A DNA stretch of 64,000 nucleotides from Chitinophagaceae bacterium (GTDB lineage Bacteria > Bacteroidota > Bacteroidia > Chitinophagales > Chitinophagaceae): positions 19,750 through 83,749 of the forward strand of contig CANBQT010000007.1 in NCBI GenBank assembly GCA_947371755.1, given 5' to 3'. Positions 9,263 to 25,761 of this stretch are shown one piece after another. The notes below the pieces were generated by a model. That model was given only the letters and a program-made list of their open reading frames with translations, was not told the DNA's origin and searched no databases. Within the stretch, counting starts at the first letter, position 1. Every line of letters starts with the position of its first letter. The position numbers were made by a program, and so were the translations under genes.

Positions 9263-9300
9263 AGCCACTTATAACAAATTAGTTATGAGTGGCTTTTTTT
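9263..9300 (+). terminator. Rho-independent terminator after tRNA-Arg
   Basis: agccacttataac / gttatgagtggct hairpin (one G-U) followed by a T run. Confidence 0.85.
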
Positions 9301-9480
9301 TGTGTTCAAATATTAATCAAAGAAATTTTATTGTCTTACGATTTTCGTTCACATATTATTGTTTAATCTCATTAACAGTTATTTGTGATTTTATTGAACG
9401 CTTTTTCAAAATCAAAAGCAACTCCTTTTCAAAGCATAGCGTATCAGGTTACAAAATCTCATCATTCAAAAAAAACAACA

Positions 9481-9764
9481 TGAAAAAAATCTTTTTAGGA
9501 GTTGCATTATTCGTAACATTTGGTAGTATCAATGCTACAACTTTAACTACAGCATCAAACGTTCTTCACATTTCAAAGGGCAACCCAAGAAGAGCAGCTC
9601 ACAGTCCAGCGAGTATTGCCACTTTTAATGCAATGTTCCCAGGAGCAACTAATGTTAAATGGCAAATCAAAGGAGAACTGGGCTACGGAGTAACATTTGT
9701 ATATAACGGTGTTAAAATGACAGCAGTATTTAGCTTTTTCACTGGAGCTTATATTGGTGCATAA
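9481..9764 (+). CDS. Small secreted PepSY-like protein, paralog 1 (supplied ORF starts at 9285; start at 9481 preferred)
   Basis: MKKIFLGVALFVTFGSINA signal peptide begins at 9481; FNAMFPGATNVKWQIKGELGYGVTFVYNGVKMTAVF resembles PepSY-like repeats (YPgA..vkW). Confidence 0.75.
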
Positions 9765-9956
9765 ATAATAAAAGTATTATTCAAATAGTACCATTCCCCT
9801 ACACATAATTTGTTGGGTATATAAATTAGATCACAAACTTTTAATGTCTATTTTATTTTTTTGACTTTTTGAATTTATTAAAATTATTAAAAGCAACTAG
9901 TTTTAAAAGAAAGGCGTATAAAGGTTATATAAATAATATTTTCAAAAAAACAAACA

Positions 9957-10234
9957 TGAAGAAAATCATTTTGGGAGCCGCATTACTTGTTACTATTGGT
10001 AATACTTATGCAAATACTTACACAACTTCTAGTGCATTACACATTTCTAAAAAAGGACCATTGAGACCTTCACATAATGATGCTAGTGTTGCAGCATTCA
10101 ATGCAATGTACCCTGGTGCAGTTTTAATTAAATGGCAGGCTAAGGGTGAAGGTGTTTATTGGGTTAGCTTTATATATAACGGAGTTAAAATGTCTGCAAA
10201 ATACAACTACTTAGGTGTGTATCTTGGAGCATAA
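9957..10234 (+). CDS. Small secreted PepSY-like protein, paralog 2 (supplied ORF starts at 9869; start at 9957 preferred)
   Basis: MKKIILGAALLVTIGNTYA signal peptide; clear paralog of 9481..9764 (FNAMYPGAVLIKWQAKGEGVYWVSFIYNGVKMSAKY). Confidence 0.75.
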
Positions 10235-13212: not shown

Positions 13213-16200
13213 ATGAGACAATTAAATACTGTACTCCGATTTTGGTATGTGTCAATACCATTGTTTCTATTTATTCTTAGTGCACCAAAAACAGTTGGGG
13301 CTCAACAATTAGTAATAGACAGTTTCGCAGTATTTGGAGGTAACGGACTCTGCCCTTTTGATAAAGGACAAACCACATGCTTAAGTCCTGGATGCTCAGT
13401 AATTATTGGTTCATCCACCAATATTACAGGTGGATCAATAGGTAGTTATAAACTGATACAAGCAAATGGTAGCAATATTTTATCGAGTAATTTAGTTAGC
13501 GGTGGCTCTATTGTTCTAAAAAACAATAGTAGCATGAAAGGAAAAATATCCATTACAAATATTCTTTCCAATACCGGTATTGTTTTTCAGGCAGGAACTT
13601 CAACCAAAATTGTTGGTGATCTTGATATTGCAGGGAATAGTACAATTGCAACTAGCGGCAGTAGTAGTGTTACAGGAAAAGTTACCCATCCAAACGGAAC
13701 TACATATACTGGACCGCTTCCAAGCCTTGGTAATGTTTTAGCTACTCCTAGCCTTCCCACCTTACCTATCATGCCACCTATCACTGTTTTTCCTGCAGCA
13801 GGAACAACAAATATTACTGCTACCAAAACAATAAGTCCAGGCTCTTATGGCAACATTACACTTACCGGTAGTCAAACCATCACATTATCTGGTACCGGCA
13901 TATATGTATTTAACAGCATTCAGTGCACAGGGGCTACAAATAATTTTGTTTTTGATTTTAAAAATGACCCAACAGGAACTATTAAAATATTAGTGTATGG
14001 AGATGTGAATTTGAACAAATGTGCCGCAACATTACTCAATGGCGGAAGTGCAAACAGGATTTATTCCGAAACACATGGTAACGGCAAATCATATAACGAT
14101 GCAACCTGTGCCTGGAATATTGCAAATGGCGCTACCACTTCTGTATCCAAATGGCTTGGTACTATCTGGTCTCCGTATGCAGCTGTATATATAGGAACGG
14201 GTGCTGGACAGACAAATTATACAGGTGCGATCTGGAGTGGCACACAGGTTAGTATTGGGAATTCGGTCAACATTACTTTCGCACCTTTTCAAAATTGCAG
14301 TACCCCAAATGTAAATGCCGGTTTAGATCAGCAATTAACCTGCGCTAATCCCTCTATACAATTGCATGGATCATCAACTTCAAATAACGTATCATATAGT
14401 TGGACAGAATTGAATGGTATAGCCATCACTAATGGCGCCAATACGGCGAATCCTACAGTATCAAATGAAGGAACTTATATTTTAAAAGTAACCAATCTCA
14501 ACGGTGGGTGCAGTGCAACTGATACTGTTGTGGTTAAATTCATTCCTTGTATTTTACCGTATTATCCACCTCCTGTAAATGGTAAAGTGGCCACTACAAA
14601 TCTAATAGGTGCTGAATTAAGCTCCTTGGCTGCAAATTTTGGTAATGTCTTAGATACAGCCAAAGCAATTTTTATCATTCAAGGGAATAATGTTTTTGTA
14701 GAAGTAATTTCATTACTAGGTCAAACCCAAACATTATCGAATCTTTTACAATCCAGTTATGGATTAACTGATACAGTTGATAATGGACCTAATTCCCTTA
14801 TCATCACTGGAAAGATTCCCATTGCAAATCTTACTTCTTTAAATAGCCTTACCAATTTAATAGATTTCGTTCGACCTTTATCACCACCACTTCGAAATAT
14901 TGGAATTATTACATCACAGGGAGATAGTGTGATCCATAGTAATTTTGTACGTGGAGGTTATGATATTAGTGGAAAAGGAGTTAAAATTGGAGTCATTTCT
15001 GACAGTTATAATTCTTTATTGGGTAATCCTGAACAAACTGATATACTAAATGGCGACTTGCCAGGTATTGGTAATACAAAACATAATATTCCAGTAAAAG
15101 TGCTTAAGGAATATCCTTATGGCAGCTCTACAGATGAGGGGAGGGCTATGTTGCAGATTATTCATGATATAGCTCCTGATGCTACTTTGGATTTTAGAAC
15201 AGGATTTATTTCAGCAGGTGATTTTGCGCAAGGTATATTAGAATTACAAAAAGATGGATGTAACATTATTGTAGATGATGTAACCTATATTAATGATCCA
15301 TTTTTTCAAGATGGACCTATCTCTAAAGCAATAGATAGTGTGGCAGCAAAAGGCGTAACTTATTTTGCAGCTGCTGGAAATTATGGATCACAATCCTATG
15401 CAGCAACATTTAATCCAGTCCCTGCTCCAAATGGCATTGTAGGATATGCACATAATTTTGGTGGTGGATCAATATTTCAAAATGACTCATTGTATGCAGG
15501 TACTTATACCCTGGTATTACAATGGCAGGATTCGGTCTATTCCCTTGGGCAAACCAGTCCGGGAACATCAACAGATCTGGACATTTATCTGACTGATGGA
15601 AATGGTAAAACTTTGTTTGGCTTTAATAGAAATAATGTAGCGGGAGATCCAATTGAGATTTTACCTTTTACCGTTACTGCCTCTACCGCAGCCAATTTGA
15701 TGATCATCCAAGCGAATGGTAACAAACCTGTTAATTTCAAATATGTTGTATTCAGGGGTAAATTAAAAATGAACAACTTCAGTTCAGGTAATTCAACCAT
15801 TGTTGGTCATGCAAATGCACAAGGTGGGATGGCTGTAGGAGCTGTACGATATACAAGAACACCAGCATATGGCATTAATCCTTCTGAATTAGAAACCTTT
15901 TCTTCACTCGGAGGGACTATAGTGAATGGTACAGTAAGAAATAAACCTGATTTTGTTGCTCCAGACGGAGTAAGCACTACTGTTAATTTTGGTTCGATTA
16001 ATATAAGCGGAACATCTTTCCCTAGCTTTTTCGGCACATCTGCCGCTGCACCGCATGCTGCTGCAGTAGCCGCATTATTGATAGAAGGAAAGAAAAAATT
16101 TGCAAATGAAACAATCAGTCCAGAAAAAATAAAAGCACTATTAATCAATTCAGCACTTCCTATTCTTGCTTCTGGTTTTAATTTTAATAGCGGGAATGGA

Positions 16201-19200
16201 TTAATTCAGGCTGACTCTGCGATGAAAACATTTGCCGCCCCCAAACCGGTTGCTACTAAAATAATTGTAACCAATCCAGATCCAACCATCGTTCCCGGTA
16301 CTCAACCATTAGATGTTACCATCAAAGGAAATTATTTTGATAACAATACACAGGTATTATTCAGAGGTGAGGCACTACCTACCGCCTTAGTGAATTCTAC
16401 TACTGTAAATACAACTATTCCAACTTTCTTGGGCAATCCTCCTATTCAAACTTTTAATGCCCCTAAGTCGAGTGTTAAAAATGATGGAGGTGCTTCTGAT
16501 ACCTTGCGTTTTTTTACTCCGCTAAAAAAGACAATTACCGTAACTGCTGAGAATAAAACAAAAAAATATGGAGAGAAATTACCAGTCTTTACGTCAACTA
16601 TTTTGGTGGATAGTATTCCCTTAGATCAAACAACTTTCACACTGCAGCAACTAGGATTAGATGAAATTTCATATACCACACCTGCAACAAGTTTCAGTAA
16701 TACCGGCATCTATTTTATTGCGCCATCAATGAGAATTTTGAACTTGACGGATCCTTTTGATATTTCATTAACTGAGAAATTTAATTATGTATTTACTAAT
16801 GGCGAATTGAATATTCAAAAATTGCCTTTATTAATTACACCAAAAGACACTACGATTACTTATGGCAGTAGAATAGCTAATATAGGATTCAATTACAATT
16901 TCGTCGACACTAGTGTGTCCTCAGATGATAAATTAAAATTATTAGATTCAATTTCTACCATTCATCAATCATTCATAAATGATACAATTATTGCTTTGGT
17001 TAGCGGAAAAGCCATTGTAAGTGGGCAAACACTTTCTGATGCAGCGCTCAATAGCCTAAGTTTTATGGCTAGTGGTAAAGCAATTGTAAGTGGTAAAGCC
17101 ATCGTTAGCGGTAAAGCCATTGTAAGTGGGAAAGCCATTGTGAGCAATCTTCAGGTTTCTGATACAACCTGGGCTATAGATGTTCCCGCCACTACAATAC
17201 TTAATTATCAAAACAATGATTCAGTTGTTAATTTGGTAAATGGCAAAGCCATTGTGAGTGGAAAAGCCATCGTTAGTGGAAAGGCAATTGTGAGTGGGAA
17301 AGCCATTGTAAGCGGTAAAGCCATAGTAAGTGGCCTGACAATTTTAAATAGCGCCAATACAAATGACACAACGAATAATCATTTGGTAGTAATTGTGGAT
17401 TCAACAGATGTAGCTGGATCTTCTAATGAATTATCAGATATTAAATCAATCAATTTGATCACTGGATTAAACGTAGGTGCCAATACAATTGTTCCAGGAG
17501 CGATGCTTTCAAATAATTTTGAAATCAGATACGGACTTGGCCACCTCAATATTTTACCCGCTGAATTAACGATAAAAACAAATGACACTGCATTCTATTA
17601 TGGCAATAACCCGGTTTATGCTGATAGTATCACAGGTTTTCTTTATGAAGATACTATAGCTAATACCATCAATGGATCAGCAACACATCAGATATTGGAT
17701 ACAGTTAATCATGTCATAATCAATTCCAATCCGGTTCCTGCAGGTGTTTATAAAGTTATCCCTTCTAATTTGCCTTTGATTAATCCATCGAATTACATTG
17801 TAAATTATATATCTGGAATCCTTACAATTAAACAGGATACCATTATCGCCAAAGTAGTTGACACATCCCGTTTCTATGGCTATGCCAATCCAGCATTTAC
17901 TATTCAATACAAAGGATTTATCAATGGTGAAAATGAAAATAATGCCTTCAGCACTTTGCCCATCGCTTCTACAAATGCTTTGATCAATTCGAATGTAGGC
18001 CAATACCCTATCAATTTAACGGGTGGACTTTCTAAAAATTATTGGGTGATAAATTCTTCTGGTATTTTAACGATTAAACAAGATACTTTAATTGCAAAGG
18101 CAGTAGATACTTCACGTGCATATGGTGCCGCCAATCCGTTGTTCAGAATCGAATATGCAGGATTTGTAAATGGAGAAAAACCAAGTAATAGTTTGAGTAT
18201 TATTCCTATAGCATCAACTGTAGCAGGTACTAATTCGCCAGTTGGAACATATGATATCAATTTGTCTGCTGGTTCCGCAACCAACTATACTATCCTTAAT
18301 AGTAAAGGGGTTTTAACTGTGAATCCTACTACACTTACAGTAAAAGTAAATGACAAATTTATAATTGATGATGTTGCCTCACCTAGCTTCACTGTAACCT
18401 ATTCAGGATTTTTGAATAACGACAGCCTGAATGCAATTGTTTCAGGGCCAATATTCACTATCTCTCCCATCTATAAAGTTGAGCAACCTGGTATTTACAA
18501 TGTGTCTGCATCTGGTATTACATTATCCAATAATGCAAATTATTCGATCAATTATTTACCAGGAAAGCTCTATGTTAATTCAGATGATGGATATGGGGTT
18601 ACAGTTAGTTTAAAATGTGTTCAAGTTTTAACCAATAGCCCAACTGGATTTGGTTATGTAGCTCAATTTGCATACAATAACCCTAATAAATATTCGGTGT
18701 ATGTTCCTTTAGGTACTAGCAACCAAATAACAACAGTTACCGGAGGTAAATTTAGCGGGCAGCCACCTTATATATTCACACCTGGAACAGGCACATTCAA
18801 TGTATATTTCAATGGAAGTACCATTACTTGGAAATTAATAACACCTATTAAAAACAATACAAGTGTTTCTAATGCGAGTGCAAATTCATCCTCTCCAAAA
18901 TGTTCCATTCCAATTATATTGCAAGCGGCGAATCTTGCAACTATCAACATGGTGAATGCTGATATGAATCAAAATGAAGGAGATAAAAATTTCATCCCTT
19001 ATCCTAATCCTACAAAAGGTTTGGTACAGTTTAATATCCCTAATTCTATTATCACTGAAAAAGATGTAGAAGTATTTGGGGAAACCGGTATCAGATACTT
19101 TGTAACACTTAATGGGAATCCAGCTAATGGCAAATTCTCTTTAGACTTTTCAAGACTAGTAAATGGAATTTATTTAATTAAGGTCAAAACAAATAATGGA

Positions 19201-19230
19201 TTTAAAGAATATAGAATTATAAAACTTTAA
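13213..19230 (+). CDS. 2005-aa T9SS-exported multidomain protein: N-terminal beta-rich domain, S8/S53-like peptidase domain, IPT/TIG-like segment, about six MBG domains, GKAIVS hexapeptide blocks, T9SS type A sorting domain
   Basis: Signal peptide; DISGKGVKIGVISDSYN, DEGRAMLQIIHDIAP, FFGTSAAAPHAAAVAALL; repeated YG..NP.F...Y.GF.NGE MBG motifs; C-term YPNPTKGLVQFNIPN...GIYLIKVKTNNGFKEYRIIKL. Confidence 0.88.
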   Translation: MRQLNTVLRFWYVSIPLFLFILSAPKTVGAQQLVIDSFAVFGGNGLCPFDKGQTTCLSPGCSVIIGSSTNITGGSIGSYKLIQANGSNILSSNLVSGGSIVLKNNSSMKGKISITNILSNTGIVFQAGTSTKIVGDLDIAGNSTIATSGSSSVTGKVTHPNGTTYTGPLPSLGNVLATPSLPTLPIMPPITVFPAAGTTNITATKTISPGSYGNITLTGSQTITLSGTGIYVFNSIQCTGATNNFVFDFKNDPTGTIKILVYGDVNLNKCAATLLNGGSANRIYSETHGNGKSYNDATCAWNIANGATTSVSKWLGTIWSPYAAVYIGTGAGQTNYTGAIWSGTQVSIGNSVNITFAPFQNCSTPNVNAGLDQQLTCANPSIQLHGSSTSNNVSYSWTELNGIAITNGANTANPTVSNEGTYILKVTNLNGGCSATDTVVVKFIPCILPYYPPPVNGKVATTNLIGAELSSLAANFGNVLDTAKAIFIIQGNNVFVEVISLLGQTQTLSNLLQSSYGLTDTVDNGPNSLIITGKIPIANLTSLNSLTNLIDFVRPLSPPLRNIGIITSQGDSVIHSNFVRGGYDISGKGVKIGVISDSYNSLLGNPEQTDILNGDLPGIGNTKHNIPVKVLKEYPYGSSTDEGRAMLQIIHDIAPDATLDFRTGFISAGDFAQGILELQKDGCNIIVDDVTYINDPFFQDGPISKAIDSVAAKGVTYFAAAGNYGSQSYAATFNPVPAPNGIVGYAHNFGGGSIFQNDSLYAGTYTLVLQWQDSVYSLGQTSPGTSTDLDIYLTDGNGKTLFGFNRNNVAGDPIEILPFTVTASTAANLMIIQANGNKPVNFKYVVFRGKLKMNNFSSGNSTIVGHANAQGGMAVGAVRYTRTPAYGINPSELETFSSLGGTIVNGTVRNKPDFVAPDGVSTTVNFGSINISGTSFPSFFGTSAAAPHAAAVAALLIEGKKKFANETISPEKIKALLINSALPILASGFNFNSGNGLIQADSAMKTFAAPKPVATKIIVTNPDPTIVPGTQPLDVTIKGNYFDNNTQVLFRGEALPTALVNSTTVNTTIPTFLGNPPIQTFNAPKSSVKNDGGASDTLRFFTPLKKTITVTAENKTKKYGEKLPVFTSTILVDSIPLDQTTFTLQQLGLDEISYTTPATSFSNTGIYFIAPSMRILNLTDPFDISLTEKFNYVFTNGELNIQKLPLLITPKDTTITYGSRIANIGFNYNFVDTSVSSDDKLKLLDSISTIHQSFINDTIIALVSGKAIVSGQTLSDAALNSLSFMASGKAIVSGKAIVSGKAIVSGKAIVSNLQVSDTTWAIDVPATTILNYQNNDSVVNLVNGKAIVSGKAIVSGKAIVSGKAIVSGKAIVSGLTILNSANTNDTTNNHLVVIVDSTDVAGSSNELSDIKSINLITGLNVGANTIVPGAMLSNNFEIRYGLGHLNILPAELTIKTNDTAFYYGNNPVYADSITGFLYEDTIANTINGSATHQILDTVNHVIINSNPVPAGVYKVIPSNLPLINPSNYIVNYISGILTIKQDTIIAKVVDTSRFYGYANPAFTIQYKGFINGENENNAFSTLPIASTNALINSNVGQYPINLTGGLSKNYWVINSSGILTIKQDTLIAKAVDTSRAYGAANPLFRIEYAGFVNGEKPSNSLSIIPIASTVAGTNSPVGTYDINLSAGSATNYTILNSKGVLTVNPTTLTVKVNDKFIIDDVASPSFTVTYSGFLNNDSLNAIVSGPIFTISPIYKVEQPGIYNVSASGITLSNNANYSINYLPGKLYVNSDDGYGVTVSLKCVQVLTNSPTGFGYVAQFAYNNPNKYSVYVPLGTSNQITTVTGGKFSGQPPYIFTPGTGTFNVYFNGSTITWKLITPIKNNTSVSNASANSSSPKCSIPIILQAANLATINMVNADMNQNEGDKNFIPYPNPTKGLVQFNIPNSIITEKDVEVFGETGIRYFVTLNGNPANGKFSLDFSRLVNGIYLIKVKTNNGFKEYRIIKL
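17002..17331 (+). repeat. 18-bp / GKAIVS hexapeptide repeats: one isolated copy, a block of 4 (17071-17145) and a block of 5 (17242-17331)
   Basis: Direct reading: amino acids GKAIVS repeated with varying wobble codons (ggt/gga/ggg/ggc; gca/gcc; att/atc/ata; gta/gtt/gtg; agt/agc). Confidence 0.97.
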
Positions 19231-19337: not shown

Positions 19338-21287
19338 ATGAATTTGACTAAAGGTTTTCTTTTTATCTGCTGCATTGCAACATCCACTATTTCAATAGCC
19401 CAGGATGAAAAAGCAACATTACTTTTAAATGATTTATCCAAGTCAAGCATAGATAGCCAAAAAGTAAACATTCTAAATAATCTTAGTAAGTACTATTTAG
19501 ATTCCTCACCTGAGAAAGCCAAAAATTATGGTATCATATCCATGCAGCTTGCAGAAAAAATAAAATACAATAAGGGGCTTGCGCTGGCTTATAAAAACAT
19601 AGGTCTTGCCGATTATACCCTTGGAAAATATGCTGAAACCATTGAGTATTTTGGCCAATCTTTAAAAGTGTATGAATCCATTGGTGATCTGGATGGCAAA
19701 GCAAAAATTCTTAATAATTTTGGTAGTGTTTATTATAATAGAGGTGAAGATGACAAAGCACTTGAGAGTTATTTCAAATCTCTTGAAATAGCTCAATTAC
19801 TGGGCGACAAAATGAGAATTGCTACCGCACTAAGCAATATTGGGAATGTGTATCATAATAAAGTTGCAACCAAACACCAAGCACTTGAATATTTTTTAAG
19901 ATCACTTAAACTAGCCGAAGAATTAAAGGATAAAAATGTAATTGGTGGTGCCAGTGTAAATATTGGGGAAGTATACCAGGAAATGAATAAAGACGATTCA
20001 GCCATTTATTATTTCAGAAAATCACTGGATGCCTATAAGAATACGGTTGATATATCTTACCCATTGAATGATATGGGGAATGTTTACGAAAAAAAAAGAG
20101 ATTATAATAATGCACTTACATTTCACAACCTAGCCTACGTTACAGCAAAAAAATTTGATTCTAAACTGGATATGGCGCAATCACAGTTAGGACTTGGAAG
20201 AACTTATTTAAAATTATCTGAATTCACTAAAGCATTAAAATCATTTACTGAAGCACAGGAAATATCTTTAGAAATTAGTTCAAGTAAAGAATTAGATAGT
20301 GCTTTTTCAGGATTGGCAAGTTCTTACTCCCATTTAAAAGATTTCAGCAACGCATATAAATATCAAAAACTTTACAGCAATCTTTCCGATACTTTAAATA
20401 ATTTAACCCTTGCTGAAAAGTTAAGCAGCCTTGAAATCCAACAAAGGCAGAGCCAGATCAACCTTCTAACAAAAGATAAAGCATTACAATCTTTAGCACT
20501 GGAGCGACAAAAACTTATAAAAAATTCATTCGCTGTAGGCTTAACACTTATTCTATTTATTACAATAATCATCTATCGCAACTATAGAACAAAGGTCAAA
20601 ACCAATTTATTATTGGATAAACAAAAGGATCAAATTGAACATCTTTTATTAAATATTCTACCTGCTGAAATTGCAGCTGAATTACAAAATAAGGGAATTG
20701 CATCACCAAGATATTACGATAGTGTTTCTGTTCTTTTTACTGATTTCAAAGGTTTTACAAGAATTGCAGATCGCCTCTCCCCACAAGATGTTGTTTCTGA
20801 ATTGAATGATTGTTTTATTGCCTTTGATGATATCATTGAAAAATATGGTCTAGAAAAAATCAAAACAATTGGAGATGCCTATATGTGCGCAGGTGGAATT
20901 CCAGCTACTGATCCTGATCATTCTCTTAAAATGATAAAAGCCAGTATTGAAATACGTGATTTTATGCAAAATCGAAATCAAATGCGTATAGAAAAACAGG
21001 AAGAACCTTTAGAGATCCGGATTGGTATTCATGTTGGGCCAATCGTTGCGGGTGTGGTAGGAAGAAAAAAATATGCTTATGATATTTGGGGCAGCACAGT
21101 AAATATTGCCAGTAGAATGGAGAGTAATGGAGAAGTTGGTCAAATTAATATTTCAGCAGAAACCTATCACCTGATAAAGGAATATTACAATTGTACTTAC
21201 AGAGGCAAAATTTATGCAAAAAATATTGGAGACATCGATATGTATTTTGTATCAAATCTTAAAGAAGACATTCAGTTATATCAATAA
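19338..21287 (+). CDS. TPR-repeat sensor with TM helix and C-terminal class III adenylate/guanylate cyclase domain
   Basis: Signal peptide, many TPR units, TM NSFAVGLTLILFITIIIY, cyclase VSVLFTDFKGFTRIADRL, EKIKTIGDAYMCAGG, YDIWGSTVNIASRME. Confidence 0.95.
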   Translation: MNLTKGFLFICCIATSTISIAQDEKATLLLNDLSKSSIDSQKVNILNNLSKYYLDSSPEKAKNYGIISMQLAEKIKYNKGLALAYKNIGLADYTLGKYAETIEYFGQSLKVYESIGDLDGKAKILNNFGSVYYNRGEDDKALESYFKSLEIAQLLGDKMRIATALSNIGNVYHNKVATKHQALEYFLRSLKLAEELKDKNVIGGASVNIGEVYQEMNKDDSAIYYFRKSLDAYKNTVDISYPLNDMGNVYEKKRDYNNALTFHNLAYVTAKKFDSKLDMAQSQLGLGRTYLKLSEFTKALKSFTEAQEISLEISSSKELDSAFSGLASSYSHLKDFSNAYKYQKLYSNLSDTLNNLTLAEKLSSLEIQQRQSQINLLTKDKALQSLALERQKLIKNSFAVGLTLILFITIIIYRNYRTKVKTNLLLDKQKDQIEHLLLNILPAEIAAELQNKGIASPRYYDSVSVLFTDFKGFTRIADRLSPQDVVSELNDCFIAFDDIIEKYGLEKIKTIGDAYMCAGGIPATDPDHSLKMIKASIEIRDFMQNRNQMRIEKQEEPLEIRIGIHVGPIVAGVVGRKKYAYDIWGSTVNIASRMESNGEVGQINISAETYHLIKEYYNCTYRGKIYAKNIGDIDMYFVSNLKEDIQLYQ

Positions 21288-22795: not shown

Positions 22796-23479
22796 ATGAT
22801 CAAATTGGCCGTTTTTGACATGGCAGGTACCACTGTAAATGAGGATAATGTAGTGTATAAAACGCTTCAAAAAGCTATAAACGAAGCAGGCTTTGATTTT
22901 ACTTTAGACCAGGTATTAGCAGAAGGAGCTGGTAAAGAGAAATTACAGGCTATCAAAAGTGTTTTAAGTGTCTATGGCAGAATTGAAGATGATGTATTAG
23001 CTAACACCATCTTCCAAAATTTTATTCAGCAGCTTGAAACTGCTTACAATAACCTGAACATACTCCCACAGGATAATGCTGAAGAACTATTTTATGAATT
23101 AAAGAAAAGAGGCATCCTTGTTGTTTTGAATACAGGTTATAACGCTCAAACAGCCAATTCATTGATAACAAAGTTAGGATGGACAATTGGAGCCCAAATA
23201 GATGGACTTGTAACGGCTTCGGATGTAAAGAAAAATCGCCCAGAACCTGATATGATTCTTTTAGCAATGGAAAAATTTCATATTACAAACCCACTGGAAG
23301 TATTTAAAGTAGGTGATTCAACCATTGATATTGAAGAAGGCAGAAACGCTGGATGCAGATATAATATTGGAATTACTACAGGTGCCCACACTATGGAACA
23401 ATTAAGTAGTGTGCATCCTGATTTTATCATTCACAACCTTCTTGAACTTTTGCCAATCATTGATCATACCAGTATTTAA
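22796..23479 (+). CDS. Phosphonatase-like HAD hydrolase
   Basis: LAVFDMAGTTVNEDNVVY (DMAGT), VVLNTGYN, KNRPEPDM, VFKVGDSTIDIEEGRNAG. Confidence 0.9.
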   Translation: MIKLAVFDMAGTTVNEDNVVYKTLQKAINEAGFDFTLDQVLAEGAGKEKLQAIKSVLSVYGRIEDDVLANTIFQNFIQQLETAYNNLNILPQDNAEELFYELKKRGILVVLNTGYNAQTANSLITKLGWTIGAQIDGLVTASDVKKNRPEPDMILLAMEKFHITNPLEVFKVGDSTIDIEEGRNAGCRYNIGITTGAHTMEQLSSVHPDFIIHNLLELLPIIDHTSI

Positions 23480-25761
23480 AAATTAACTACTGGTTTAGGA
23501 TTCACTATAATGGTAATCACATTTGAAGCAATACTTCCATCCACTGCAGTTCTTGCAAGACGTTTATAGTAAGAAGTCTGGGTAGGTGGTACAGGATTAT
23601 AGGAAGCACTTGTAGCACCAATGATATTATTATACGTAACATTATCCGTAGAAATTTGCCATTGATAGGTGATAGTACCAGTGCCCCCAGAAGCTATCAC
23701 AATGCTGGTAAAAGGATCCAGACTTTGTCCTACACAATAGGATTGATTAGAACCAATACTCCCGGAAAAAAGTGTTCCATTAATCGTTGCAATCACAGGT
23801 GTTCTCAAATCTGAAACACAACCAGTGGTTGTATTTCTTGCTTCAGCAAAATAGGTTGTTGTAGAAGAAATAATGCCAGTGGTATAAGATAAACTTCCTG
23901 AAATTAATGCAGAACCTCCTGAAGGGTTTTGATACCAGTCAATGGAAGTGCCAATAGCCGGCGTAACTGTGCCTGAAATTGTTAAAGAACCTGCACCGGT
24001 TCTTGCAGCTCCAGTGGTTGTTGCAATCAATGGTAAAGGATTGATTGAACCAGTTACTGCAATAGACTGACTAATGGCACCTGTGGAACTTAACACAATA
24101 TTGCCTGAAACAGTTCCACTAACGCCAACTCCAACTCTCACATAAATAATAGTAGACGTGATAGTTCCTCCTACACCAGCTAATGCAATGGAATTAGCAA
24201 AGCCTGTTCCAGATGCTAGCGATATTTCGAAGCCTGTTGGTGCAGTTATGATCACATCGTTCGTAAGACTTGTTCCTACAATAGACAATGTTTGAATTCC
24301 AGAAACCACTCCTGAACATGTTACAAATGGATTCAATGTTCCTGAAACTGTAATAGTTGGCTGTGTGTTTGAACAATCAAAACTGATTGTGGCAGGCGCA
24401 TCTAATTTAGCAGTAACAGCACTACTGATCACTGCAGTGGTATTGGATGGAATACCTATGGACCCACCTATATTATGACCAACATACCAATACTGATCAA
24501 TATTCAAAGCTAGATTAGTATAAAATGCAATAGTAAAGTGACCGGAAATACTAAAATCGCTAAACCCTCCTACTCCATAAATATCTACAGGTGTACTGTT
24601 GGTATAAGTTGCTGTAAAACTAGATTGAGATGCAATCCCCAGCATAGATGCTACACCATTACCCCATCCGTACACGTGACCTGAAGTAGACATCGCTCCC
24701 ATTGTGAATAATCCTGCCTCAGTATTACCATCGATGCGTACAATATTAGAAAGCGCACTGATTACTTGAAATTTTGGTTGATTAAAACTAGTAGTACCAT
24801 TCCCAACACCTAATATTCCTTGAGTATTTAATCCACAACTGTATACCCTTAAATTATTTCCTAAAAGAAATAAAACATTGGGAGCGTTGTTTCCTGATTG
24901 ACCAAGTGTTACAATATCAACGACAGTTATCCCTGCTGGAATTTGAGCAGACATGTCGTATGCATAGTTATAACTGGTTGCAGTATTTACCACACCATTT
25001 ACATTTGCTGGAGAACCCCAATAATATATATGACCAGTAGCAGTAAGAGCAAAAGCTCCAGAATTGGAAAGTGAAAATTTAACTACTCCGGAAAGGAATG
25101 TAGATCCGTTTGATAAAGTAACATGATGCCAAATTGCTGGTCCCGCTACTGCCTTATCCCCTTGTAGATTCACCACTTTAGTAAGCATATACACATGCCC
25201 CAATTTGGTAACGATGGCAATCGCTGTAGGTGAAATTTCAAATTGTGCTACATCAGAAATAGATATACCCGCTGGTAATTTAAGTGAGACATTACTTCTA
25301 CTATCAACCAATGATGGTCCACCAAAATTAGCCATAGAAGTTATTGCGCTAATATTTGGCATGTCACCGAAAATATATAAGTTGCTGGATGTTCTCAACC
25401 CCATCACACTTGGCCCTGTACCACCGCCAGTGCTGGAAGATTTAACTTCATAAGGTATACCAGCATAACTTGAAGTAGAAACAAACACGGGTGCTAATAT
25501 ATCTCCTGTTACACCAGTAACATAGGTATTCATATTCTGCCCCCAGGCAAGCAATACATTGGTACCTACCTGATTGCCTATATATAAATTAGAATGGTAC
25601 GAACCAGTAAACCTATTAAAAGTAAGAGGATCACAGGTTGAACCTGAACCCAGAGGTAAATTTTCTATTCCCATCTGAGCAGAAACTGGGGCCAGACTTA
25701 CCAATAAAAAAATAATTACTAATAATCGTTTCGAACTTCTTGAAAATTGTTGCAGTTTCAT
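23476..25761 (-). CDS. Secreted RCC1-like repeat protein with Ig-like/beta C-terminal region; no sorting domain visible
   Basis: Signal peptide; repeated VYGWGNG/ IYYWGSPAN/ LGVGNGTTS motifs like RCC1; TYQWQISTDNVTYNNI Ig-like; ends IIVNPKPVVNF. Confidence 0.7.
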   Translation of the reverse strand: MKLQQFSRSSKRLLVIIFLLVSLAPVSAQMGIENLPLGSGSTCDPLTFNRFTGSYHSNLYIGNQVGTNVLLAWGQNMNTYVTGVTGDILAPVFVSTSSYAGIPYEVKSSSTGGGTGPSVMGLRTSSNLYIFGDMPNISAITSMANFGGPSLVDSRSNVSLKLPAGISISDVAQFEISPTAIAIVTKLGHVYMLTKVVNLQGDKAVAGPAIWHHVTLSNGSTFLSGVVKFSLSNSGAFALTATGHIYYWGSPANVNGVVNTATSYNYAYDMSAQIPAGITVVDIVTLGQSGNNAPNVLFLLGNNLRVYSCGLNTQGILGVGNGTTSFNQPKFQVISALSNIVRIDGNTEAGLFTMGAMSTSGHVYGWGNGVASMLGIASQSSFTATYTNSTPVDIYGVGGFSDFSISGHFTIAFYTNLALNIDQYWYVGHNIGGSIGIPSNTTAVISSAVTAKLDAPATISFDCSNTQPTITVSGTLNPFVTCSGVVSGIQTLSIVGTSLTNDVIITAPTGFEISLASGTGFANSIALAGVGGTITSTIIYVRVGVGVSGTVSGNIVLSSTGAISQSIAVTGSINPLPLIATTTGAARTGAGSLTISGTVTPAIGTSIDWYQNPSGGSALISGSLSYTTGIISSTTTYFAEARNTTTGCVSDLRTPVIATINGTLFSGSIGSNQSYCVGQSLDPFTSIVIASGGTGTITYQWQISTDNVTYNNIIGATSASYNPVPPTQTSYYKRLARTAVDGSIASNVITIIVNPKPVVNF

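Follow-up and report, generated by a model that had tools for sequence, protein, structure and literature searches.

The hexapeptide GKAIVS, repeated in a secreted protein of a Chitinophagaceae bacterium, is quite probably, to judge from comparative sequence analysis, a multi-copy peptide ligand for the TPR ectodomain of a receptor cyclase encoded downstream. The genes lie in the window, a stretch of 64,000 nucleotides. We observed the array, homologs that carry words of their own, the pairing of the array gene with a receptor gene, and a covariation between word and receptor that is localised to the TPR groove. We infer that word and groove bind each other directly, and the data suggest that array and receptor form an undescribed peptide-and-receptor signalling pair.

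The product of the array gene consists of a signal-peptide-like N terminus, a PKD-like domain, an S8/S53-like peptidase, MBG domains with the array, and a T9SS tail, in this order. Its features are located as follows in the window.

13213..19230, + strand: array gene, encoding a 2005-aa secreted protein (open reading frame plus Pfam and NCBIfam matches)
15682..16200, + strand: C-terminal half of the S8/S53-like peptidase, with the Ser of GTSAAAPH (PF00082, residues 824-996)
16525..16824, + strand: MBG-type domain preceding the array (MBG_2 stretches; alignment A2)
16825..17577, + strand: MBG-type domain interrupted by a large insertion bearing the word array (alignment A2; profile searches)
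17005..17022, + strand: single GKAIVS unit, residue 1265
17074..17145, + strand: block 1, four tandem GKAIVS units, residues 1288-1311 (also found by Tandem Repeats Finder)
17146..17241, + strand: conserved 32-residue spacer between the blocks, of the type [VI]D[VL]xxxSI[FL]xY in homologs
17242..17331, + strand: block 2, five tandem GKAIVS units, residues 1344-1373 (also found by Tandem Repeats Finder)
19000..19206, + strand: T9SS type A sorting domain (PF18962, TIGR04183)

The initial annotation had described ten GKAIVS copies in a 1+4+5 arrangement with blocks about 32 residues apart. This arrangement was recovered in the open reading frame, and Tandem Repeats Finder gave an independent call of each block (17071-17141 and 17236-17333, period 18). 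The similar lead-ins it had pointed out before the isolated copy and the second block are present (NDTIIALVSGKAIVSG and NDSVVNLVNGKAIVSG), and its description of a T9SS-exported MBG protein agrees with the MBG_2, S8 and T9SS matches, the C-terminal type A sorting domain scoring 32.4 bits with TIGR04183 for a cut-off of 23. A pattern search of the genome detected the GKAIVS motif at no other site, and the control, the same pattern reversed, gave 0 matches. In alignment A2, the flanks of the array insertion are kept throughout the order (SINLITG..AG..IVPGA..S.NFE..YG.G.L.I).

Arrays in genomes of the same family and order were first located with the DNA pattern G-x-A-[ILVMF]-V-x, and profile searches then identified about 60 genes with the same insert. 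Homologs of A2, a profile of the domains flanking the array, were present in 30 of 399 order genomes and in 44 of 399 family genomes; as the two samples overlap, these counts add up to more than the number of distinct genomes. In the phylum outside the order, the DNA pattern found arrays to be essentially absent, its sole match (G961, one match) looking like chance, and a phylum-wide dispersal was rejected on this ground.

Between the conserved flanks, nearly every lineage has a repeated word of its own, present in 3 to about 80 copies. The words include GKAIVS, GKAIVA, GRALVS, GYALVN, GTALVN, GKSIMN, GKAIMN, AKSIIN, ARTIIN, AKPLVN, ARPLVN, GKAAVN, ARAAVN, ARQAVN, SRALVN, SRAIVN, SKAVAN, IKSVVN, AHAIVN, PAYLVN, LRGIVS, EEAIIN, GIPLVN, GVPLAN, GVPFVN, GLSLVN, GLALVD, GVVRAN and PKVVTN. 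They follow a common pattern of a small, a variable, a small and two aliphatic residues, then Asn, Ser, Ala or Asp. Octamers such as GQLQALVN, GTLVQLVN, GQAVTIVN and GQPVAISN occur in G107, G121 (L219), G084 (L271), G976 (L275), G269 (L277) and G981 (L276). An octapeptide at the hexapeptide site is also used by L274 (G125), and the receptors of octamer-word relatives, where present, mostly cluster on the receptor tree. Words are mostly uniform within a protein, even across blocks split by unique spacers, and differ between species; mixtures of related variants within one protein were seen in G526, G550, G291 and G981. Mapping the words on a tree of 27 protease domains gives 20 changes of word, and a single genus (g6) uses five different words. 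Identical words occur in close relatives (the window and L030; G462, G491 and G364; G009, G236 and G983). The largest array seen belongs to a 4010-aa relative (L045, G526), in which about 75 copies of [GA]-x-ALV-[DN] units extend over some 600 residues (about 1219-1800). The closest relative of the window's receptor (L255, G044a) accompanies a degenerate GKAIFS array of 3 exact copies and decayed units, which is perhaps in decay or change.

The gene that follows the array gene encodes a signal-peptide-like N terminus, TPRs, one membrane helix and a class III nucleotide cyclase, in this order.

19338..21287, + strand: receptor gene, 107 bp downstream of the array gene (PF00211, E 1.3e-55; TPR_12, E 4.1e-33)
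19404..20447, + strand: TPR ectodomain, predicted periplasmic; residues 61-160 carry the word covariation
19704..19706, + strand: receptor residue 123, Lys in the window, position 2 of TPR3 helix A
19947..19949, + strand: receptor residue 204, Gly in the window, position 2 of TPR5
20712..21254, + strand: class III adenylate/guanylate cyclase domain (PF00211, residues 459-639, 188 bits)

The TPRs are predicted to lie in the periplasm because a signal peptide precedes them and a membrane helix with basic residues after it follows; the cyclase probably produces cAMP. Among the 61 loci with enough sequence, 54 have a TPR-cyclase gene on the same strand within 300 bp downstream of the array gene, and 7 have no receptor in this position. 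Such pairing is not due to abundance, since the twelve genomes tested contain only 1 to 9 TPR-cyclase homologs each (E<=1e-40). Five TPR-cyclase homologs lie on one strand within about 11 kb in G403 (contig C17:14133-24836; L315, L318), possibly as a tandem receptor cluster. Elsewhere in the window, two adjacent, similar small ORFs with signal-peptide-like starts (9285-9764 and 9869-10234, + strand) have a stretch in common (GNPRRAAHSPASIATFNAMFPGA / GPLRPSHNDASVAAFNAMYPGA) and are probably a tandem duplication. On the - strand, 23479-25761 encodes a protein that looks secreted and combines RCC1-like repeats with an Ig_7 (CHU_C-associated) domain.

The distance between words was compared with the distances between segments of the receptor and of the array protein by partial Mantel tests, which are known to be liberal with related sequences and which, for 16 loci, gave a correlation of word with TPR distance of r 0.43 (p 0.0008) when cyclase and protease were controlled. 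Extra controls (n 13-15) located this signal in the N-terminal half of the TPRs. With 44 loci, word distance was correlated with receptor residues 61-110 (partial r 0.28, p=0.001) and 111-160 (partial r 0.37, p=0.001), that is with the TPR2-3 region, and weakly with residues 211-260 (p 0.05, or 0.02 with octamers). The C-terminal TPRs (TPR6-8), the linker and the cyclase showed no significant correlation with the word in the same tests (n=44). Coevolution of the word with protease, cyclase, pre-array or post-array domains was not supported overall by partial Mantel tests.

Per-site comparison, for which words had been assigned by hand beforehand, singled out receptor residue 123, whose partial r with word position 6 was 0.97, the next of 579 columns reaching 0.50. 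Residue 123 is Asn in 45 of 45 scored loci with a word ending in Asn, one of which (G107) has mixed word endings, and Lys, Arg, Leu or Thr in 7 of 7 with a word ending in Ser or Ala. All 52 scored loci thus have Asn123 when, and only when, their word has a final Asn; G1002 and G1039 (Asp123, with an Asn-containing long unit) were left out of this scoring. On a receptor tree built from columns outside TPR1-5, residue 123 and the word ending change four times, at the same places (the window plus G044a; G161; G046; the LRGIVS clade). The chance that four random, branch-length-weighted changes would be co-located in this way is about 1.1e-6 per column, or about 0.004 after 579 x 6 tests, for independent changes that are few, only four; an independent-pairs test found 2 pairs on supported branches, too few for significance.

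Receptors outside the fit mostly follow the same rule. Asn123 was found at 5 of 6 loci with an Asn-ending word (G308, G503, G345, G388 and G403b), some of these five receptors sitting on another contig so that their pairing with the array is assumed; at the sixth, G017, the nearest receptor is 8 kb away and has Ser123. A strict rule fails at G526, because a mostly Asp-ending word there accompanies a divergent receptor with Asn123. Eight of nine paralogs that are not paired with an array lack Asn at residue 123.

We take residue 123, at position 2 of a TPR helix A, to be a concave-groove position. Groove positions 2, 5, 6, 9, 12 and 13 of TPR2-4 covary more strongly with the word than the other positions (0.182 vs 0.064, p=3.9e-4), and in TPR6-8 no such difference between groove and non-groove positions was found (p=0.8). 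Residue 204, at position 2 of TPR5, is associated with word position 5 (partial r 0.54). TPR5 follows TPR3 at an offset of two repeats, so that the receptor could read position 6 of one unit and position 5 of its neighbour together; the distance between these repeats may be about that of one extended hexapeptide, which would favour the intact tandem array as the ligand. The words proper to each lineage and their covariation with the receptor go beyond the single-protein view of the initial annotation.

The receptor TPRs gave a single-sequence AlphaFold model with block-mean pLDDT of 86-98 over model residues 1-210 (receptor residues 23-232) and an overall mean of 73.0. The nearest solved folds are LGN/Pins TPR-peptide complexes, followed by KLC, Rap with CSF (4gyo) and O-GlcNAc transferase, and LGN/Pins (GPSM2) is the closest TPR fold both by sequence and by structure. 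The TPRs of LGN/Pins bind extended peptides in their concave groove. Several repeats of the receptor consensus carry Asn at TPR position 6 (NIG), as does the Asn ladder of O-GlcNAc transferase; this Asn is typical of Asn-ladder TPRs, a term that appears alongside TPR and peptide backbone in the literature.

The array could instead be structural, a stacked beta solenoid or an extended stalk in which like residues stack, linked to a cyclase that does not read the word; we consider this unlikely. The common word pattern is compatible with a short strand plus a turn, a length of 6 or 8 residues keeps strand parity, and the conservative variants within G526, G550 and G291, like the several words of G526, G550 and G981, would fit a looser structural constraint. 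In addition, the YdcK profile PF18836 matches the GKAIVS array stretch with E 5e-7 and 29.6 bits, just under its curated cut-off of 30 (16.5 bits on the whole protein and 23.4 bits on the bare array). However, of nine other words tried, the same profile recognises essentially none, and a structural role would not account for the covariation of the word with the TPR2-5 groove or for its match with residue 123. Structure prediction for the array region with AlphaFold (the window plus L030) gave an unusable model (mean pLDDT 31.5, pTM 0.22). The beta-solenoid suggested by the initial annotation was not supported, and its six-residue period stood for the window and many words but not for several relatives with an 8-residue word. 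Membership in the YdcK/left-handed beta-helix family was rejected, with GKAIVS below the cut-off, the other words unmatched and octamers breaking the six-residue period; as far as the sequences tell, the YdcK look of GKAIVS is the resemblance of one word. YdcK arrays, which are common in phages, likewise consist of tandem G-x-A-x-V-x hexapeptides (for instance viral GRAIVS and GKAMVN), but positions 2 and 4 vary freely in phages, and octamer words occur in the present family. Viral contigs such as L068, L163, L079, L056 and L129 contain arrays of this type, G-[NDKRYES]-A-x-V-[SYFC], and at least 120 stretches of phage-type contigs matched one degenerate hexapeptide pattern. Profile A2 found no relative among the viral contigs, and we regard the phage arrays as look-alikes.

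A quite improbable alternative is that the S53-like protease of the protein itself, or the T9SS, uses the words as signals for cleavage or sorting, the receptor correlation reflecting shared ancestry only. The full peptidase domain begins upstream of the PF00082 match, at an ISDSYN motif, and a DEGRAM motif (TDEGRAML...HDIAP, window 15000-16200) places Glu where subtilases have their catalytic His. The Asp of ISDSYN, the Glu of DEGRAM and the Ser of GTSAAAPH are kept in most homologs testable by motif search, so that this protease, despite matching an S8 model, looks like one with a Ser-Glu-Asp (sedolisin/S53-like) triad. Such conservation, and two protease columns that correlate with word position 5 (r 0.81, n=25), would suit this alternative. 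Against it, the protease domain does not predict word distance after correction for the receptor segments (partial r 0.05, p 0.30, n=30), the receptor signal being unchanged, and TPR6-8 and the cyclase, which have the same ancestry, show no signal. Variation of a surface structure, by which words would escape phages, predators or host recognition with the receptor link being secondary, is highly improbable: words are indeed very divergent between species, but close relatives share identical ones and the copies within a protein are kept alike.

The ten 18-bp units are all distinct at the DNA level with 0 amino-acid differences, in line with the divergence at wobble positions reported in the initial annotation. 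Codon identity among them is 0.50, where the codon usage of the gene would predict 0.40, and neighbouring units resemble each other in codons no more than distant ones do. The units share descent, because their Ser codons are always AGY despite TCN making up 59% of the Ser codons across the ORF. A comparison of copy number with a close relative, as had been proposed, showed that L030 (88% protein identity) keeps an identical 1+4+5 array. Over the whole protein, the window and L030 have a codon identity of 0.61 at unchanged residues. Silent sites differ no less between their orthologous than between their non-orthologous units (permutation p 0.71), a result that was repeated with G491/G364 and G009/G236. 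In most homologs, codon identity among copies is near the codon-usage expectation, for example in G532b (32 copies, 31 of them DNA-distinct, 0.31 observed vs 0.34 expected). Constraint on the protein sequence of the units has lasted so long that their silent sites are close to saturation. Invariant amino acids, near-saturated silent sites, the array retained in L030 and the orthologous-unit test bear out the earlier proposal of selection on the peptide, and recent DNA slippage was rejected on codon saturation and the orthologous-unit test. DNA-level repeat expansion without a selected function therefore deserves next to no credit and is largely refuted already by the codon data: a few relatives have units with similar codons that point to recent expansion (codon identity 0.81 in G345 and 0.65 in G537) and copy number differs between genera and slightly within one genus, but codons are near saturation with invariant amino acids in most homologs, including the window, and copy number is conserved in L030.

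If GKAIVS is a ligand, the secreted protease-like protein would reach the type IX secretion system by way of the periplasm, where the array, or a peptide cut from it, would occupy the concave groove of TPRs 2-5, and this occupancy would set the activity of the cytosolic cyclase of the inner-membrane receptor. Word and groove would evolve as lock and key, which could explain why copies within a protein stay alike, silent sites drift and words differ between species. The chances that the intact array is the ligand seem a little better than even; the receptor would then monitor secretion by reading, in the periplasm, the array that its own cargo carries. The chances of a released peptide fall somewhat short of even; the protease or another enzyme would free it to act between cells. 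It is a tentative and rather doubtful extension that Bacteroidota possess a multi-copy pheromone, a species-specific word freed by a T9SS-exported S53-like protease and sensed by kin through the co-encoded TPR cyclase, with private signalling channels arising as word and groove coevolve.

Known systems resemble this pair in part. Repeated identical peptide units in one secreted protein and a candidate membrane receptor recall the yeast alpha-factor, whose precursor contains several identical peptide units and which is secreted and sensed by a membrane receptor; the present pair differs in being bacterial, in its receptor class and in that no processing sites were identified here. LGN/Pins and O-GlcNAc transferase are eukaryotic scaffolds or enzymes, have no species-specific hexapeptide arrays and, unlike the receptor described here, are not membrane cyclases. 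PADLOC gave partial matches of the cyclase to the Pycsar cyclase PycC and of the subtilase to IetS, at the level of domains only, and an anti-phage system was rejected. The RRNPP(A) family of Bacillota comprises Rap-Phr, PlcR-PapR and AimR-AimP (PMC11343458, PMC10075063, PMC6458997), and Phr propeptides can carry several pheromone copies (PMC11343458). As in RRNPP(A), ligand and TPR-receptor genes are adjacent (here in 54 of 61 loci), words are short and lineage-specific, TPRs and peptide covary, and a precursor holds several peptide copies; Rap-CSF (4gyo) is among the structural neighbours. As opposed to the cytosolic HTH/phosphatase-type receptors of that family, the receptor here has a signal-peptide-like start, a membrane helix and a class III cyclase. 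The candidate ligand lies in a 2005-aa protease-like T9SS cargo instead of a short secreted propeptide, in up to about 80 copies, and the hosts are Gram-negative Bacteroidota. The pair would thus work like RRNPP quorum sensing but fails the features of membership.

Searches of open-licence PMC papers found no description of this array or gene pair, although one may exist elsewhere, and no peptide signalling system of this kind was found for Bacteroidota in the open-access literature. Selection on a ligand would give a reason for repeats that are identical in protein while their DNA diverges. If our reading is correct, Bacteroidota would possess a coevolving ligand-receptor pair with some 30 natural word/receptor combinations at hand, and a readable TPR-peptide code in which word position 6 corresponds to position 2 of TPR3 and word position 5 to position 2 of TPR5. 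GKAIVS and its counterparts would then be the first candidate ligands for periplasmic TPR-cyclases.
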